Of a stretch of DNA of 64,000 nt, positions 10,866 to 61,153 are shown piece after piece. The position numbers and the translations under genes were made by a program. The stretch's first letter is position 1. Each line of letters begins with the position of its first letter. Below the pieces are notes generated by a model. The model was not told the DNA's origin and searched no databases. It was given only the letters and a program-made list of their open reading frames with translations. Source of the DNA: Cyanosarcina radialis HA8281-LM2. Its GTDB lineage: Bacteria; Cyanobacteriota; Cyanobacteriia; Cyanobacteriales; CCAP-1448. The stretch is taken from positions 1-64,000 of the forward strand of contig JAHHHA010000029.1 of NCBI GenBank assembly GCA_019359615.1, given 5' to 3'.

Positions 10866-10928
10866 GAAGTGTTAAGTGTGGAGTGTTGTAGGAAGTGTTA
10901 AGTGTGGAGTGTTGAGTGTTGAGTTAAG
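10866..10928. repeat. GTGTTGA/GTGTGGA heptad tandem
   Basis: Heptads of the form AAGTGTT, AAGTGTG, GAGTGTT follow one another with slight variation. The same heptad family appears at 21055-21090, inside queE at 21321-21391, and inside the transglutaminase-fold gene at 50784-50816. Confidence 0.7.
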
Positions 10929-10953
10929 AAATTCCCCCTTGTCTCCCTTGTCT

Positions 10954-11025
10954 CCCCATCACCCCATCACCCCATCACCCCATCACCCCATCACCCCATC
11001 ACCCCATCACCCCCTCACCCCATCA
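10954..11025. repeat. Octamer tandem CCCCATCA x9, overlapping a gene end
   Basis: Nine octamers run without a break: seven perfect CCCCATCA, one variant CCCCCTCA at 11010-11017, then one more perfect unit. The end of the START-like gene (11015) lies inside the array, and its stop codon TGA is read from the variant unit. Because eight is not a multiple of three, each step of unit loss or gain would shift the frame and alter the C-terminus. Confidence 0.85.
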
Positions 11026-11461
11026 CCCCCTCTGCAACTTTTTTGAGCCGTTGGAGTTGAGCCTGCATATCTTGCTGAGTCAGCTTACTAGCAAATGCGT
11101 TAAATCCCCAGCGTACTAGCGGGTTAGGAATCTGGAATTCAAAGCGGTTGAGCAAGAGCGTACCTTGGGGATGGGGTTGACACTCCCAGCGATCGCGCCC
11201 GTGAAAAAATCCGGTAAACTGCCAAACGACTAGCCCTGGCTGTCTTTCTACCACGACGCTATCGAGCGTTGGCGGCCAGAGGGGAAGTTTAATCAAAAAC
11301 CGACTCTTGCTGCCAATATCTGTACTCCACTCGCCTACAGGCTCGCATAACAGCATTGGGTTCAGCCAGCGGTGCATCAAGATGCGATCGGTGAGGCATT
11401 GCTCGACGATGCTGGCGCTGGCATCGATTTGAATCGATTGTTCAAATTTTTGCAGGGACAT
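11015..11461 (-). CDS. SRPBCC (START/polyketide-cyclase-like) protein
   Basis: The 148-residue protein has the SRPBCC helix-grip fold: an opening beta strand FEQSIQIDASASIVEQCLTD, a small helix, strands RFLIKLPLWPPTLDSVVVERQPG and LVVWQFTGFFHGRDRWECQP, and a long C-terminal helix QQDMQAQLQRLKKVAEG. Such proteins hold hydrophobic ligands in a cavity; the ligand here is unknown. The last residues (GVMG) and the stop codon are encoded by an octamer tandem repeat, so the natural C-terminus has been rewritten by the repeat. Confidence 0.75.
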   Translation of the reverse strand: MSLQKFEQSIQIDASASIVEQCLTDRILMHRWLNPMLLCEPVGEWSTDIGSKSRFLIKLPLWPPTLDSVVVERQPGLVVWQFTGFFHGRDRWECQPHPQGTLLLNRFEFQIPNPLVRWGFNAFASKLTQQDMQAQLQRLKKVAEGVMG

Positions 11462-15517: not shown

Positions 15518-17716
<2,199 letters not shown>

Positions 17717-21090: not shown

Positions 21091-21111
21091 AGAGAGGTTT
21101 GAGCTAATAAT

Positions 21112-21213
21112 ACCAAATCCGGTTCTCATACCATCCATTGCTGCCCTCACCCCCAACCCCTCTCCCAGGCTTGGGAGAGGGGAGTCGGAAAGTTTACAAC
21201 TCATTTAGGATTG
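21112..21213. repeat. Element A copy abutting the queE stop
   Basis: It begins TACCAAATCCGGTTCTCATA, then runs through the CCATCCATTGCTGCCCTCAC segment and a CCCCTCTCCC/GGGAGAGGGG hairpin. The sequence continues up to the queE stop codon at 21214. Other copies are at 54544-54787 (two), 24603-24654 (interrupted by MITEs), 60436-60559 and a short form at 13508-13590. Confidence 0.7.
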
Positions 21214-22255: not shown

Positions 22256-24079
22256 ATGCCGCTGCCTCCCATCACCGAAGACACCATCCGGCATCACGCC
22301 AACGCCAATTCCTTCAGCCGCGGCCAAGCCTACTATGACAGTGGTGCCGTCCTCGATATCGTGCAGCGAGACGATCGAATTCAGGCAGCGATCGAGGGCA
22401 GTGAAGCCAGACCTTATCGGGTCAACCTCCAGTTTGATGCAGGTGGAATTACCGCTGCCTCCTGTAGCTGTCTCTACAATTACGACGGTTGGTGCAAGCA
22501 TATTGTCGCCACGCTTCTCACCTGTATTCGCCAGCCTGATGCCATTACCGTTCGTCCCAGCCTCGCCCAATTGCTCGATCGCCTCGACCACCTGCAAACC
22601 CAACGCCTCGTGCAAGACCTAGTGCAGGAACACCCGGAATTGATAGATACGATTGACGATCGAGTCGCGCTCCTTACCCTCCCTACCCCAGCACCAGCCA
22701 AAACCCCAAAAACTCGCCGGACTGCCATCGATCCGGCTCCCTTTCGGCGACAAGTTCGGCAGATTATTCGAGCAGCCATCAACTCGGCAGAAGAAGGCTA
22801 CGAAGAAGTCTCGGTCGCGGAAGAGTTACTAGACTTAATTGACAAAGCCCAAGAATTTACCGATCGAGGAGATTGCCAGAGTGCGATCGCCATTCTTGAA
22901 GTAATTACGAGTGCCTGTGCTGATGAGTGGAACGAGTTGGCCGATTACGGGTTGGATAGTGCCGAAGTGGAGAGCTACTTAAACGAGGCGTGGAGCAATG
23001 CCATCCTCAGCGACGACCTCACCGCAGACGAACGAGCGCACTTACAGGAGACGATCGAGGAATGGCAAGATAGCATCGGTTCTTTTAAGATGAGCCTGAC
23101 GGCATTAGAGCAGGGCTGGCACTATCCACCACTGCAACGAGTCCTCCAGGGCGAGATCGGTACTCATGGCGCGTGGGAAGCGGAAAGACCGGAGTATGCT
23201 GACGATCTAGCATTGGTACGACTCCGTATTCTCGATCGCCAGTCGCGCGATCGGGAGTATTTGAATTTAGCCCTGGCAGAATCCCAGACGACAGAGTACC
23301 TGCTCAAACTGGTGCGCTTGGGACAAATCGAAACGGCGATGCGCCAAGCCCAAGCCTTGATGACTACCCAAGCAGAAGCATTTGCCTTGGCCAAAGCGTT
23401 GCGAGAACAGCAACAGGTGACAGAAGCCTTAGCGATCGCCAAAGCTGGACTCTCTCTATCGGTGCCATCGACCCGCGACCCCTTTGATTTTACCTTCTCT
23501 GCCAAGCCGATCCACAACCCCTTTGAGTTCGCCAGTTGGACGAGCGATCTAGCTGAAGGATTAGGGGATACTCAAACGGCGATCGAGGCTCGGATTGTGG
23601 CTTTCCAAAAGCAACCTTCGTTTCAGGAATATCGCAAACTTGAGGCGTTAGCAGGTCAGCGGTGGCCATCTCTTAAATCTGAGCTATTGCAAAGCCTCCG
23701 CCAGTCTTACCCGTGGGGAGCAGAAACCGCCAAAGTCGATATTTTCCTGCACGAAGGAGCGATCGAAGATGCGATCGAAGCGGTACGATCGACCACCACT
23801 TCTTATTATTCCCATCTGGTTCGTCGCGTCATGACAGCAGCGATCGAGTCTCATCCGGAGTGGGCGATTGCCGAGGGAAAGAGACGAGCAGAACCAACGA
23901 TGGATGGGAAGAAGTCCGATCGCTATCAGGATGCAGTTGATTGGTTGAAGCAAGTGCGAGCGGGCTATTTGCAACTAGGGCAAGAAGCACAGTGGACAGC
24001 ATATCGGCAGGAATTAGTCAATGCACACGGACGGAAATATAAATTGATGGAGTTATTCAAGCAAAAAGGCATGGAGTAG
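22256..24079 (+). CDS. SWIM zinc-finger protein
   Basis: The 607-residue protein opens with a SWIM domain: the first 85 residues include YYDSGAVLDIVQRDDRIQAAIEGSEARPYRV and the zinc motif CSCLYNYDGWCKH (CxC...CxH). The long remainder is alpha-helical, with repeats of TPR-like look (DRGDCQSAIAILEVITSACADEWNE, LKLVRLGQIETAMRQAQALM, AKALREQQQVTEALAIAKAGLSL). SWIM domains bind DNA or proteins; the partner is unknown. It is transcribed away from queE and has normal codon use. A role linked to helicases or recombination is common for SWIM proteins but cannot be inferred here. Confidence 0.88.
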   Translation: MPLPPITEDTIRHHANANSFSRGQAYYDSGAVLDIVQRDDRIQAAIEGSEARPYRVNLQFDAGGITAASCSCLYNYDGWCKHIVATLLTCIRQPDAITVRPSLAQLLDRLDHLQTQRLVQDLVQEHPELIDTIDDRVALLTLPTPAPAKTPKTRRTAIDPAPFRRQVRQIIRAAINSAEEGYEEVSVAEELLDLIDKAQEFTDRGDCQSAIAILEVITSACADEWNELADYGLDSAEVESYLNEAWSNAILSDDLTADERAHLQETIEEWQDSIGSFKMSLTALEQGWHYPPLQRVLQGEIGTHGAWEAERPEYADDLALVRLRILDRQSRDREYLNLALAESQTTEYLLKLVRLGQIETAMRQAQALMTTQAEAFALAKALREQQQVTEALAIAKAGLSLSVPSTRDPFDFTFSAKPIHNPFEFASWTSDLAEGLGDTQTAIEARIVAFQKQPSFQEYRKLEALAGQRWPSLKSELLQSLRQSYPWGAETAKVDIFLHEGAIEDAIEAVRSTTTSYYSHLVRRVMTAAIESHPEWAIAEGKRRAEPTMDGKKSDRYQDAVDWLKQVRAGYLQLGQEAQWTAYRQELVNAHGRKYKLMELFKQKGME

Positions 24080-24223
24080 TTTCAGCTTATCTATTGCCTA
24101 ATACCATTTTGGATTTTGGATGAAAGGATTGCGAATAGGCCCCTCTGTCTGGGTTTGGCTAATCCATCTGCCCAGTTCTTTTTTCAAAACCGTCTTGACC
24201 TCGCCCCGACTCCGGCTCCCCTC

Positions 24224-24359
24224 CTTTCAAGGGTATGTTTTTGAGATTTGGGGTGGTTCTGGAGCAGGGGATGCAGGGGGAGCAGGGGAAGAAAAGCCAT
24301 TGTTTTCGTCGTCTACTCATCGCTCACAGAGCCAATTTTTAAAACCATACACCTGTAAG
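24224..24359. mobile_element. MITE B copy 1 with target-site duplication
   Basis: The 136-bp element has ends CTTTCAAGGGTATGTTTT and, on the other strand, CTTACAGGTGTATGGTTTT, matching at 15 of 19 positions. It is flanked by the direct repeat CGGCTCCCCTC (24213-24223 and 24360-24370), which rebuilds the element A sequence when the insertion is removed. A second copy lies at 35922-36066. Confidence 0.85.
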
Positions 24360-24380
24360 CGGCTCCCCTCTCCCAAGGGA

Positions 24381-24594
24381 GCTACCGTGTATACATAAGT
24401 TATCGATTTGCCGTTTCACACTAAGATCCCCCTAAATCCCCCTTAAAAAGGGGGACTTTGATAACTTTCCCCTGTTTGGTGCAAGCTGCACAGCGAGGGA
24501 ACCTCGCCGCAACTCCCCCCCTTTTTAAGGGGGGGCTAGGGGGGATCTAATGCAGGGCCTCCAAGTTTTCCCACAGATGTGTATACACGGTAGC
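24381..24594. mobile_element. MITE C with target-site duplication
   Basis: The 214-bp element has perfect 15-bp terminal inverted repeats GCTACCGTGTATACA. It is flanked by the direct repeat CCAAGGGA (24373-24380 and 24595-24602; nine bases if the preceding C is counted). Inside is a longer inverted pair that begins AGATCCCCCTAAATCCCCC on the left and ends GGGGGGATCT on the right. Fragments of the family occur at 81-100 and around 43355-43641. It carries no gene. Confidence 0.85.
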
Positions 24595-24654
24595 CCAAGG
24601 GAGAGGGGTTGGGGGTGAGGGCAGCAATGGATGGTATGAGAACCGGATTTGGTA

Positions 24655-26172
24655 TCAATAAATTTCCCCATATTTTTGACGGATGTAGCTAATAAACGGA
24701 TCGATGCTTAAGGGGTTGCCTGTAGCTTTTTGCATCAGTTCGACTGGAGTGTACTTACAACCGTGCTGGTAAATGTTGGTTTGCAGCCAATTGAGTAACG
24801 TCTGGAAATTGCCCTGCTGAATTTGGGTAGGAATTTCTGGGTGTGCCTGCAACGCAGCGGCGAAAAATTGGGCGCTCATCAGGTTGCCGAGAGTGTAGCC
24901 TTGAAACATTCCCCCAATGCTGCCCATGTACCAGTGAACGTCTTGCATGACCCCTTCGCTGTCGCTGCTAGGAACGATACCGAGAGCCGTGCGATATCCT
25001 TCGTTCCAAGCTGCGGGTAAATCCCGCACGGCTAATTTACCTTCTAGCATCTGCAACTCTAGCTCGAAGCGGATGGCGACGTGCAAATTGTAGGTGACTT
25101 CATCAGCATCGGTGCGAATGAGCGATCGCTCGACTTTATTTATTGCCCGATAGAAGGTTTCTACAGACACATCTTGCAACTGAGTCGGGAAAACCGCTTG
25201 CAACTGCGGATAGAAGAACTGCCAAAACTCGCGGCTGCGCCCGACTAAGTTTTCCCACAACCGAGATTGACTTTCGTGAACTCCGGCTGACGTGCCGTTG
25301 GCCAGAGGTGTAGCCTCAAATTCTGGCGAAATCCCTTGTTCGTACATCGCATGGCCGGTTTCGTGGATGCTACTAAATAGCGCCTGTGCCAGGTGGTTTT
25401 CGTAAACGCGAGTGGTGATGCGAACATCTCCTAACGAGAATTTCGTCATAAAGGGGTGCAGAGTCTTATCTTGTCTGCCCCGCTGCAAGTCATAACCTAG
25501 CTGGGCGATAACTTGGTGGCTAAAAGCTAATTGCCGATCTTCGGGGAAATGCTGGCGCAAGCAAGTATCGTCTATAGCTGGTTGGGAAGCAATAGATTGG
25601 ACTATAGGTACTAACTCCTCTCGCAATCGGGCAAATAGCGATCGCACTGTATTGGCCGTCATGCCGTAGTCGGCATCTTCTATTAACGGATCGGCGATAT
25701 GTTCGTAACCGGGGAAAAAATTGGCATATTCGCGGCTCAATTCGAGCATCCTTTCTAAATAAGGCTGGACGGCGGCAAAGTTATTTTCTGGGCGAGCTTT
25801 GGCCCAAGCACCGTAACACTCGGTGCGATGGTGAGAGAATCTAGCCACAAACTCGGCAGGGACTTTAACAGCGCGATCGTACTCCCTTTTGGTAATCCGA
25901 ATTAAGCTGGCTTCGTCGGTATCGTAGGGCAAGCTGGTTCGATCGGTTTGCAGATCTGCTAGCAACTGCCCTATAGCCGGAGCGGTAAACTTTTCGTGAG
26001 CAATTTGTCCTAGAGTTGCCAGTTGCCGCCCCCTAGCTGCTGCCCCACCAGCAGGCATATAGGTAGCTTGGTCCCAATGCAGCAGTGAAGCCGCCGAGTT
26101 AATGTCGTTGATTTCCGTCAAGCGAGTTTTCAGTTCAGCAAGCTTGGGGTGAGTCTTTTCCAACGTCTGCAT
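24655..26172 (-). CDS. M32 family carboxypeptidase
   Basis: This is a cytoplasmic zinc metallo-carboxypeptidase of the M32 (thermostable carboxypeptidase 1) family, which removes C-terminal residues with broad specificity. The 505-residue protein has the family opening LHWDQATYMPAGGAAARGRQLATLG, the zinc motif HETGHAMYEQG (HExxH near residues 266-270), the downstream Glu in GVHESQSRLWENLVGRS and the C-terminal GYTLGNLMSAQFF. The length is standard. Its stop codon abuts the end of element A. It is a single-gene unit. Confidence 0.94.
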   Translation of the reverse strand: MQTLEKTHPKLAELKTRLTEINDINSAASLLHWDQATYMPAGGAAARGRQLATLGQIAHEKFTAPAIGQLLADLQTDRTSLPYDTDEASLIRITKREYDRAVKVPAEFVARFSHHRTECYGAWAKARPENNFAAVQPYLERMLELSREYANFFPGYEHIADPLIEDADYGMTANTVRSLFARLREELVPIVQSIASQPAIDDTCLRQHFPEDRQLAFSHQVIAQLGYDLQRGRQDKTLHPFMTKFSLGDVRITTRVYENHLAQALFSSIHETGHAMYEQGISPEFEATPLANGTSAGVHESQSRLWENLVGRSREFWQFFYPQLQAVFPTQLQDVSVETFYRAINKVERSLIRTDADEVTYNLHVAIRFELELQMLEGKLAVRDLPAAWNEGYRTALGIVPSSDSEGVMQDVHWYMGSIGGMFQGYTLGNLMSAQFFAAALQAHPEIPTQIQQGNFQTLLNWLQTNIYQHGCKYTPVELMQKATGNPLSIDPFISYIRQKYGEIY

Positions 26173-29619: not shown

Positions 29620-29695
29620 AAGTGTTGAATTGCTGCCCTCACCCCCAACCCCTCTCCCACGGGAGAGGGGAGCCGCAGGCTCCTTTGAGGGCAAA
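29620..29695. repeat. Element A fragment upstream of the SDR gene
   Basis: The segment runs from GCTGCCCTCACCCCCAACCC to GGAGAGGGGAGCCGCAGGCT with the CCCCTCTCCC/GGGAGAGGGG hairpin. In the SDR reading frame it would add a repeat-derived N-terminal extension, which I have left out of the gene. A second repeat family piece (GGCGTAGCC, about 29748) follows. Confidence 0.55.
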
Positions 29696-35921: not shown

Positions 35922-36066
35922 CTTTCAAGGGTATGTTTTTGAGATTTGGGGTGGTTCTGGAGCAGGGGATGCAGGGGATGCAGGGGGAGCAGGGGAAGAA
36001 AAGCCATTGTTTTCGTCGTCTACTCATCGCTCACAGAGCCAATTTTAAAAAACATACACCTGTAAG
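35922..36066. mobile_element. MITE B copy 2, inserted in the end of the cupredoxin gene
   Basis: The 145-bp element is nearly identical to copy 1 (24224-24359), with the same ends CTTTCAAGGGTATG and CTTACAGGTGTATG. It is nine bases longer because of one extra GGATGCAGG-type unit. The flanks repeat GAGGGCCAGA at 35911-35920 and 36067-36076, a 10-bp target duplication. The insertion supplied a new C-terminus and stop codon to the neighbouring gene. Confidence 0.85.
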
Positions 36067-36619
36067 GAGGGCCAGACGCGCTCTCTATCCCCGCTGCTTG
36101 CACTTCCAGCACACCTCTAAACATATTCATGCCGCAGGTGAATTCATATCTGCCAGGTTTGTCAGGCGTAAACTCGATGGGGGTGACTCGATCGAGCGGT
36201 AATTCTTTAGCAATGTGGAAATCGGGAAACCGGACTTCTTCCAAGCAACTGCTGGGATCTTGGCGATAGAAATTCAGTCGAACGGGTTGACCCACTTGCA
36301 CCGCGATTAGGCTCGGTTCGTAGCCGCCATCGACGGTAACGGTAACTTCCTGAACGCCTCCTTGGGTCGTCGCTTGGCGCGACTTGGGTTTGGCGATCGA
36401 GAACCACCATAATTCCAGTCCAATTAATCCTAAACCACCTGCGGTCACGGCTCCTTTCACCCACAAAGGTTGGTCGATGCGTTGAAACTCTCCAGTTGTC
36501 TCAGTGGTAGAGGGTGGCATTTGCTCGTGAGACATTTGGGCAATAGCTCGACCTGAAGTTACCCCTAGCAAAACACCTAATGCGGCCATGCCACTCAAAA
36601 TAGCCGATCGATCGATCAT
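36020..36619 (-). CDS. Membrane-anchored cupredoxin with a MITE-derived C-terminus
   Basis: I start at the ATG at 36619, preceded by AGGAGATG. The 199-residue protein has one N-terminal hydrophobic segment (SGMAALGVLLGVTSGRAIAQ), a second transmembrane helix (VKGAVTAGGLGLIGLELWWF) and a cupredoxin domain: VTVTVDGGYEPSLIAVQVGQPVRLNFYRQDPSSCLEEVRFPDF and YEFTCGMNMFRGVLEVQ, whose Cys and Met are copper ligands in this family. It follows the Cu ATPase and probably passes or buffers copper at the membrane. The last 15 residues (PYRCMFFKIGSVSDE) are read from a MITE; before insertion the frame would have continued PPAPPASLG. Confidence 0.85.
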   Translation of the reverse strand: MIDRSAILSGMAALGVLLGVTSGRAIAQMSHEQMPPSTTETTGEFQRIDQPLWVKGAVTAGGLGLIGLELWWFSIAKPKSRQATTQGGVQEVTVTVDGGYEPSLIAVQVGQPVRLNFYRQDPSSCLEEVRFPDFHIAKELPLDRVTPIEFTPDKPGRYEFTCGMNMFRGVLEVQAAGIESASGPPYRCMFFKIGSVSDE

Positions 36620-36713
36620 TTCAACATCTCCTATACTGCCCCGATAATGCTTTCTGAAATGACACCCAGGAAAAATCCCACGCCTGCCAATGTGCCGAAG
36701 AATCTGAAAATAA

Positions 36714-38972
36714 CTACCGACTGCTGACTGGCTGGAAATTACGCAACCGCAACGCATTCGTCACCACCGAAACTGAGCTAAATGCCATGGCGGCCCCGGC
36801 AATAATTGGACTGAGCAACCAACCGAACACTGGGTAAAGAATCCCTGCCGCGATCGGAATTCCAGCAACGTTGTAGATGAAGGCAAAGAATAGGTTCTGC
36901 TTGATGTTGCGAATCGTCGCCCGACTGAGTTGAATGGCGGTAACGATACCTTGGAGGTCGCCAGAAATCAGAGTAATATCGCTAGCGGCGATCGCGACAT
37001 CCGTTCCCGTACCGATCGCAATTCCTACATCCGCTTGAGCTAGGGCAGGCGCGTCGTTAATCCCATCGCCTACCATGGCTACTACTTTGCCTTCAGTTTG
37101 AATCGTTTCCACTGTGGCCGCCTTTCGATCTGGGCGCACTTCGGCCAAGACTCGATCGATTCCCACTTCGCGGGCGATGACATTGGCAGTTCGTTGGTTG
37201 TCGCCCGTCAGCATCACCACTTCTAAGCCCATTCTCTGCAAGGTGCGAATGGCGCTGGCAGAAGAGGGCTTTACTGCATCGGCAATACCCATAATGCCTT
37301 CGGCTTTACCGTCTACCGCGATCCAGATGACTGTTTTGCCCAGGTATTCCAGCTTGTCCCACTGCGATCGCAACGCGGTAGTATTAATTCCTAATTCCGT
37401 CATCCAGCGGTGCGTGCCGATTTGCACCGATCGATCGGACGCGTAACCTTGCACCCCACTACCAGCGATCGCCTCAAACTCTTTAGCATCAGTCAACTCT
37501 ACCCCTTGAGAGCGAGCGTATTGCACCACGGCTTCAGCTAGGGGATGTTCTGAATTGCGCTCGACGGAGGCCGCTAGGTGTAACAGTTTTAGTTCGTTGC
37601 TATCGGCCGTACCATTAACGGTTATGTAGTCGGTGACGGTAGGCTTGCCTTGGGTAATCGTGCCAGTTTTATCGAGAACGATCGTCTGTAGCTTGTGGGC
37701 TAATTCCAGGCTTTCCGCGCCTTTAATTAAAATGCCGTTTTCTGCTCCTTTGCCCGTTCCGACCATAATTGAAGTCGGCGTTGCCAAGCCGAGGGCGCAG
37801 GGACAAGCGATAATCAGCACGCCGACGGTAGTAATTAACGCCATGGTGACGTTGCCCATGATATTAAACCAGAGGACGAAGGTAAGAATCGCGATCGCGA
37901 TTACTGCGGGCACAAACCATCCCGTCACTCGATCGGCCAGTCGTTGAATCGGCGCTTTCGATCCCTGCGCTTGCTGTACCAGGTTGACGATTTGAGCTAA
38001 AAAGGTATCTTTCCCAACTCGCGTGGCTCGAAACTTAAAGCTGCCAGTTTTGTTAATCGTGGCTCCGATGACTTCATCGCCTGGATGTTTCTTGACAGGG
38101 TAGCTCTCACCCGTCACCATGGATTCGTCGATCGTCGAGGAACCTTCGACAATTTTGCCATCGACTGGAATGTTCTCCCCAGGGCGAACGAGAATAATAT
38201 CGTCCAAAACTACTTCAGCAATGGGAACGTCAATTTCTCGATCGAGGCGAATCACCCGCGCCGTCTTGGGCTGCAACCCCATCAGCTTGCGAATAGCTTC
38301 TGATGTTTGCCCTTTGGCCCGATTTTCTAACAACCGTCCCAGCAGAATCAAAGCAATAATGACGGCTGCGGCCTCAAAGTAGACATCTGGGCTGAGCCTC
38401 TGGTTGACGAACCACTGAGGGAAAAATGTCGGAAATAACGAGTAAAGGTAAGCCGTACCCGTACCGATCGCCACTAGGGTATCCATGGTGGCAGTATGGC
38501 GTTTGAAGGCTTTCCAGGCGTTGAGGAAGAACCCGCTCCCCGCCCAAAACAATACCGGAGCCGTCAGCACCAGTTGCAGCCAGGAATTGTGCAACCACAT
38601 GGGGATGAAGGGAATATCTAACCCAGTCATGGCAGGCAGCGAACCAATTACCAGGACGGCACTGACAATGCCACTAAACCACACTTTCCTGGTTAACTTG
38701 CGGTTCTCGGTTTGTCGTTCCCGCCGCTCGGCATCATCTTCAGGGACAAGTACATCGTCTGGCATCGGCTGCGCCGCATATCCTGCGGCATCGACAGCAT
38801 TTTGAATCGTGGCTATATCGGTTTTACCAGGATCGTAAGTAACAGAGGCTCGATCGGCCCCAAAATTGACGCTGCACGCCTTCACTCCCGGTACGGAACG
38901 AATTGCTTCTTCAATGTTATTGGCACAGGAGGCACAACTCATGCCTCTTAGTTTTAGGGTTGTTGTGTCCAT
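36714..38972 (-). CDS. Copper-translocating P-type ATPase
   Basis: The 752-residue P1B ATPase pumps Cu(I) across the membrane, either out of the cell or into thylakoids (PacS/CtaA types). It has an N-terminal heavy-metal domain with GMSCASC (10-16), eight predicted helices, the phosphatase loop [11 protein letters not shown], the ion-path motif [11 protein letters not shown], the phosphorylation site [14 protein letters not shown] and the hinge [20 protein letters not shown]. The next gene upstream is a matching copper chaperone. Sequence alone does not tell which membrane it serves. Confidence 0.94.
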
Positions 38973-54467: not shown

Positions 54468-54790
54468 AAATGCCCATACAAAATGGGGGTAGGCATTGCC
54501 TACCCCGAACAGAAGCTATTTTGGGTTAGCTCGAATTCATCCTGATACCAAATCCGCTTAGCAAAAGTTGGTTTGCCCTCACCCCGCCTTCGGCACCCCT
54601 CTCCCAAGCTTGGGAGAGGGGAAGGGGTGAGGGCTGGATTCCTGCTTTTAAAAGCCGGATTTCGTATGATACCAAATCCGGTTTACAAAACCGTGTTGAC
54701 CTCAAGGAGCCTCCGGCACCCCTCTCCCTTGGGAGAGGGGTTGGGGGTGAGGGCAGCAATGGATGGTATGAGAACCGGATTGCGTATGAC
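54468..54790. repeat. Two tandem copies of element A at a gene end
   Basis: Two element A copies follow each other (54543-54667 and 54664-54787). Each starts GATACCAAATCCG, contains the CCCCTCTCCC/GGGAGAGGGG hairpin and ends CCGGATT..GTATGA. The second copy ends four bases before the stop codon of the cytochrome gene at 54791. No gene is present. Confidence 0.7.
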
Positions 54791-60347: not shown

Positions 60348-61153
60348 TCTCACCCCCAGCCCCTCTCCTGCAAGAAGAGGGGAGACAGTCACACCAGTAG
60401 GGTGAGTTAGGTGGCGATCTTTCGTGCAATTAACTCATCATACCAAATCCGATTTTCATACTATCCATTCAGCCCTCACCCCCAACCCCTCTCCCTTGGG
60501 AGAGGGGAGCCGGAGGCTCCTTTGAGGTCAAGACGGTTTTGTAAACCGGATTTGGTATCAATTGTCTGTCCACCGTAACCCACAGCAGCAAGTCTAGCTT
60601 CAGATTCTACAGGGGCAGTCAGCCCTCACCCCCTGTGTCCCTTACAAGGGTATGATTTTCAGATTTGTCAAAGCAAGGGAGATAAAATCAACAGAGAATA
60701 GAAGTCGCGCTCATGTTTGATTATTTTGATCGAGCGCCCGAAAAACTATACTTTCAGGCAGAAAAACGGGAGTTATGACTGATTTGCGATCGAAGAAGTT
60801 GCATCCCGTAGCGTCTTGCCCTCCAACGTCACCCACATTCCTTAAATCGTAATATTAAATTGATTTAGTTGCTTGACAAAATATTATGTTGATGCTTCAA
60901 TCGCTCGACTAGCTAACATTTGAAATTGAGGCAGTTCAAAATTAAAAATGATACTAAAATTGCTTGCTATTCCTTTCTATGCAACATTTATGCTAATCGT
61001 AAATTATTTTATTTTTTCCACATTTATAAAATAGAAGCGCTCGCTGGCGAACATGAAAAAGTTCTCATCTAAAATTCATGAAGAATTAATTCTCGATTGA
61101 GATTCTATATTTTAGCAACGAAGCAATGATTAACAATCGGAGAAATTCAAATC
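60348..61153. repeat. Repeat-rich intergenic region with element A and an IS relic
   Basis: Bases 60436-60559 are a complete element A (TACCAAATCCGATTTTCATA ... GTAAACCGGATTTGGTA), with both ends matching in inverted orientation. Bases 60641-60778 look like the 5' end of an insertion sequence, listed separately. Bases 60780-61150 are AT-rich with no gene; this is probably the promoter region of the next secreted protein. Confidence 0.6.
60641..60778 (+). mobile_element. Insertion-sequence relic sharing the MITE B end
   Basis: CTTACAAGGGTATGATTTT matches the MITE B terminal repeat (CTTTCAAGGGTATG). About 70 bases later an ATG opens a 21-codon frame MFDYFDRAPEKLYFQAEKREL that ends at TGA (60776-60778). 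This has the layout of an IS left end followed by the first codons of a transposase gene, now cut short. The opposite end is not found. It may be a relic of the element that mobilised MITE B. Confidence 0.45.

Follow-up and report, generated by a model that had tools for sequence, protein, structure and literature searches.

Introduction

Within the IS4 family, the IS50 subgroup is listed with the end consensus CW------Y---CA-A--W- and with target duplications of 8-9 bp (PMC2266710). Another IS4 member, ISRm22, is found in REP palindromes, and the targets of Tn5 are palindromic with G/C at their ends (PMC1525189). Here we analyse a cyanobacterial locus where short elements carrying ends of IS4 type lie inside a palindromic repeat. 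The window, the whole 64,000-nucleotide stretch under study, is part of contig 12 in a draft genome of 6.5 Mb and 65 contigs. The locus is bordered on one side by a gene whose end is at 24079 and on the other by a carboxypeptidase-like gene on the minus strand (24655-26172). From the comparisons below we consider it highly probable (about 0.94) that three non-autonomous transposons (MITEs) are nested here, of which element A would have inserted first and elements B and C later.

Results

Architecture of the nest

The sequence-only reading had claimed that A is interrupted by B and C, and every junction that it named is present in the sequence. The left (distal) piece of A, on the minus strand at 24181-24223, lacks its outer tip and was delimited by a spliced alignment to the intact copies L274 and L275, which begins there. 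It ends with the left copy of the B target duplication, CGGCTCCCCTC (24213-24223), an 11-bp site that recurs unchanged in L010, and in L004 with a single mismatch. MITE B, which is non-coding, follows on the plus strand at 24224-24359 and is succeeded by the right copy of CGGCTCCCCTC (24360-24370); its length of 136 bp, inverted ends and duplication are as had been described. The middle piece of A (24371-24381, minus), assigned by sequence and splice alignment, includes, at 24372-24381, the first of the two copies of CCCAAGGGAG, the duplication that flanks C. MITE C, a strong hairpin of 212 bp, lies on the plus strand at 24382-24593 and is followed by the right copy of CCCAAGGGAG (24594-24603). 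The right piece of A (24604-24654, minus), identified by its sequence and by copy comparison, terminates in AACCGGATTTGGTA, and TCA at 24655-24657 is the expected 3-bp flank.

Two of the boundaries first drawn had to be moved. The inverted ends claimed for C were found, but its length of 214 bp and its 8-bp duplication needed correction: the other copies of C with paired ends and the autonomous elements start with CTACC and finish with GGTAG, so that C is one base narrower at each end and its duplication is 10 bp. The 8-bp CCAAGGGA seen on both sides (24373-24380 and 24595-24602) is a shorter reading of CCCAAGGGAG. In one copy of C (L226), C instead of G precedes CTA. Element A had been given as 24080-24654; its right end holds, but its left end lies near 24181, since 24080-24180 does not match the A copies and the left tip (TACCAAATCCGG) is missing from the nest.

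Removal of both MITEs, with one copy of each duplication, had been said to restore A. When the sequence was spliced in this way and aligned to intact A, the resulting 106 bp were identical to L274 and L275 at 102 positions; the unspliced locus aligns to A copies only piecewise. The claim that B and C moved after A was in place is supported; both have consistent ends and duplications in many copies. Because the duplications of B and C do not overlap, the layers are ordered only as A before both B and C.

Element A as a palindromic repeat

A is a palindromic element of about 117 bp with a GC-rich core. The census gave at least 41 matches, with 40 of 394 first-look candidates scored. Among the scanned genomes, its ends are common only in the host (65 exact matches, against 0-1 in nearly all others). 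Elsewhere in the window, nearly complete copies lie at 54668-54787 and 60439-60557, and partial copies at 21110-21189 and 29629-29694. The strongly palindromic, GC-rich core and the numerous truncated copies would also suit a structural REP-like palindrome that spread by a route other than that of a MITE. We regard this as unlikely, since the inverted ends of complete copies match each other and 16 of 26 such copies are flanked by a 3-bp TNA duplication; this triplet makes a MITE the best reading of A. We take such a TNA duplication to be a feature of IS5/IS1031-type MITEs.

The MITE B family and its autonomous relatives

The ends of B, CTTTCAAGGGTATG and CATACACCTGTAAG, form an imperfect inverted repeat (11 of 14 positions complementary). 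Besides partial copies, the host genome contains 11 full-length ones. All but one of these (L006) have an 11-bp duplication at their flanks, with no more than two mismatches: six exact (L001, L002, L003, L005, L010 and L011), three with one mismatch (L004, L007 and L008) and one with two (L009). Copies elsewhere measure 118-145 bp. Inside B is a G-rich 9-bp minisatellite whose repeat number varies among copies (136 versus 145 bp). B therefore has the features of a MITE: it is short and non-coding, with inverted ends, a duplication of constant length and the ends of an autonomous IS. One copy, at 35922-36066 of the window, overlaps the 3' end of an ORF on the minus strand (36020-36757) that is cupredoxin-like, and supplies the final codons and stop of this ORF. 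A lone B-type end, CTTACAAGGGTATG, occurs at 60641-60654 and has no partner nearby.

A full-length insertion sequence with matching ends had been proposed as a further check, and autonomous relatives were found for both B and C. The ends of B are those of an IS4-like element found in genome G042, Nostoc CENA543 and Nostoc C057 (L161, L298 and L299). The G042 element is 1768 bp long and has terminal inverted repeats and no recognisable duplication; those on the Nostoc plasmids measure 1357/1360 bp and have exact 11-bp duplications, AGGGGCCACCG and AGGGGGAGCAG. The transposase matches PF01609, carries the YREK motif CWYGMRCWIECLFKDIK and scores 103.5 against the NCBIfam model IS4_2, under the cut-off of 152. 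The DDE transposase, the YREK motif and the 11-bp duplications all fit an origin of B from an IS4-like element of uncertain subgroup. An intact B transposase was not found in the host draft of 65 contigs, where the best candidate was a 26% match to another IS. Across 291 genomes of the class, a search at E<=1e-60 gave no match, at a strict threshold and with the known carrier probably not sampled.

The MITE C family and its autonomous relatives

One end of C is CTACCGTGTATACATAAGT, and the opposite end is the complement of CTACCGTGTATACACATCT. When up to one mismatch is allowed, the terminal repeat of C has 104 matches in the genome, against 1 for a reversed control pattern. Forty-two copies with paired ends, 107-347 bp long, share the terminal repeats and differ in their cores. 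Scored as exact or with one mismatch, duplications flank 24 of the 42, most often of 9 bp (n=13), otherwise of 10 bp (n=7), 11 bp (n=3) or 12 bp (n=1); the other 18 have none under this rule, some of which are diverged or may combine mispaired ends. The proposed genome-wide search for terminal repeats, with duplications tabulated, thus yielded duplications and consistent ends for B and C alike. Four further copies of 212 bp are 98-99% identical to that of the window, which suggests that this form spread recently. The hairpin fold of C has a z-score of -6.1. Inverted ends, many copies, duplications and the ends of an autonomous IS again describe a MITE. Within the class, C ends are present in 45 of 291 genomes. 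A C-type end also lies at 86-100 of the window, near the contig start, where the contig apparently breaks within a C variant of about 217 bp found too at contig ends C49 and C32. Repeats of other kinds in the window include a tandem array of the 8-bp unit CCCATCAC (10926-11044) and a similar array of CCCATCTC (17343-17413).

At both ends, C is identical at 14 of 14 positions to a 1486-bp IS on a plasmid of Nostoc C057 (L297), flanked by the duplication GTTTATTAAG. Related elements are ISSysp3, 1485 bp, on a plasmid of Picosynechococcus PCC 7002 (duplication CCCTCTAAAT), and a Leptolyngbya copy (duplication CTCATACAAT). A fragment from a Leptolyngbyaceae metagenome bin (L204) joins a C end to a transposase that scores 314 bits against NCBIfam NF033590 (cut-off 160), with the motif WYSWRWQIEQLFAILK, read as YREK. 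Both CTACCGTGTATACACATCT and CTACCGTGTATACATAAGT fit the IS50 consensus at every listed position; duplications are 9-12 bp for C and 10 bp for its autonomous relatives, compared with the 8-9 bp listed for IS50 (PMC2266710). In the host draft of 65 contigs, the search for an intact C transposase returned only a relic, a decayed gene at C31:4187-5008 with a stop and lost stretches, adjoining a C end. Where two C ends are spaced 1-4 kb in other genomes, we take them to belong to separate MITEs that are paired by chance.

Palindromes at the insertion sites of C

Rebuilt from their flanks, the empty sites of C typically read CCTCTCC-N-GGAGAGG. Counted around their centres, paired positions number 9.1 on average, whereas randomly chosen positions in the same loci give 5.7. 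The mean of the C sites was not attained in any of 10,000 control samples, but this contrast is overstated, as copies of one repeat do not provide independent sites. By sequence comparison, the sites are spread over several different repeats, a substantial minority lying in A-type sequence. Comparable sequences, such as CCTTGGTAAGG, are found at many sites in other genera, and C-rich/G-rich palindromes also surround the autonomous copies. From these sequences, C appears to have a strong preference for palindrome centres, in A, elsewhere in the host and in other cyanobacteria.

It could be argued that B and C occur in A simply because copies of A are common and tolerant intergenic DNA, with no target preference involved. 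A is abundant, as the 394 first-look candidates (40 of them scored) indicate, and intergenic insertions survive best. This explanation is nevertheless quite improbable: the excess of pairing at C sites, the similar palindromes in other genera and at autonomous copies, and the finding by sequence comparison that 7 of 11 B sites lie within A-type sequence all argue against it. We thus attribute the insertion of C in A to target preference rather than to a chance nest.

Palindromes of the target type are also present in the cores of C (CCCCCTTTTTAAGGGGG). At three loci of genome G212 (L191, L195 and L196), one C-like element lies within another and is flanked by duplications of 10-11 bp, CCTTGGTAAG(G); in two of the three, the outer element was recognised by its ends alone. 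More tentatively, and at somewhat less than even odds, the C lineage may form a system that extends across the cyanobacterial class, with an IS50-type transposase and its MITEs homing in on the centres of palindromes and building nested C-in-C arrays away from genes; each C insertion would then add landing sites.

A second nest

Another copy of A bearing both B and C lies at C16:78930-79322; its spliced sequence and intact A agree at 117 of 124 positions. C sits there at the same palindrome centre and with the same duplication as in the window. The presence of both MITEs in a second copy of A might suggest that an A-B-C composite was copied as a single unit, in which case the nesting would be uninformative on separate insertions. 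However, A is reversed in orientation relative to B and C at C16, the flanks differ from those in the window, B occupies a different site of A with the duplication CAATCCAGCCC, and most copies of B and C occur singly, so that this account is very improbable. A composite transposon in which A, B and C move together was rejected on the differing B site. The two nests are independent events, so that A has been entered repeatedly by B as well as by C.

Discussion

Insertion with target duplication, nesting, restoration of A and identity of the ends with those of autonomous elements are established at the level of sequence; the history behind them would run as follows. A, a palindromic MITE that duplicates TNA, would have inserted first, and one of its tips is now absent. 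B would then have entered one arm of A, moved by an IS4-like transposase making 11-bp duplications. C, also after A, would have entered the palindrome centre, moved by an IS50-type (ISSysp3-like) transposase of the IS4 family making duplications of 9-12 bp. Both were probably mobilised in trans, by cut-and-paste, through transposases of related ISs, and that of C may recognise palindromic target DNA, with which the palindromic targets of ISRm22 and Tn5 are consistent (PMC1525189).

Two MITE families are thereby tied to autonomous IS types that can be located, MITEs and ISs from different cyanobacterial genera appear to share a palindrome preference, and a repeat-rich genome gains ordered layers. 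The accepted picture of MITEs and of REP-targeting IS elements is unchanged. A search of Rfam gave no match, and a literature search on the repeat sequences themselves gave no relevant paper. As far as our tools reach, in a comparison that drew on neither ISfinder nor subscription articles about MITEs of cyanobacteria, the families appear to be undescribed and their types already known. What seems new is the second, independent nest of B and C, and the strong preference of C for palindrome centres.

Among known systems, the IS50-type ISSysp3 shares with C the end consensus and a palindromic target; its relatives have a transposase with the Y-2-R-3-E-6-K signature, whereas C has no transposase gene. 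B has a counterpart in the IS4-like elements on the plasmids of Nostoc CENA543 and C057, whose transposase bears no IS name: these have terminal CTTTCAAGGGTA and 11-bp duplications as in B, but they are coding, whereas B is a non-coding element of 136 bp. In combining a MITE with a minisatellite, B resembles, by description, BrickBuilt of Porphyromonas gingivalis (PMC4596501). In Coxiella, QMITE2 is hit by IS1111, likewise a case of a MITE serving as the palindromic target of another mobile element, although the families are others and a full IS was inserted there (PMC10969869). Finally, REP-targeting IS elements such as ISRm22 insert, like C, into repeated palindromes outside genes and make duplications that end in C/G (PMC1525189); here, however, the inserts are MITEs, some of the palindromes lie in other MITEs, and the host is a cyanobacterium.
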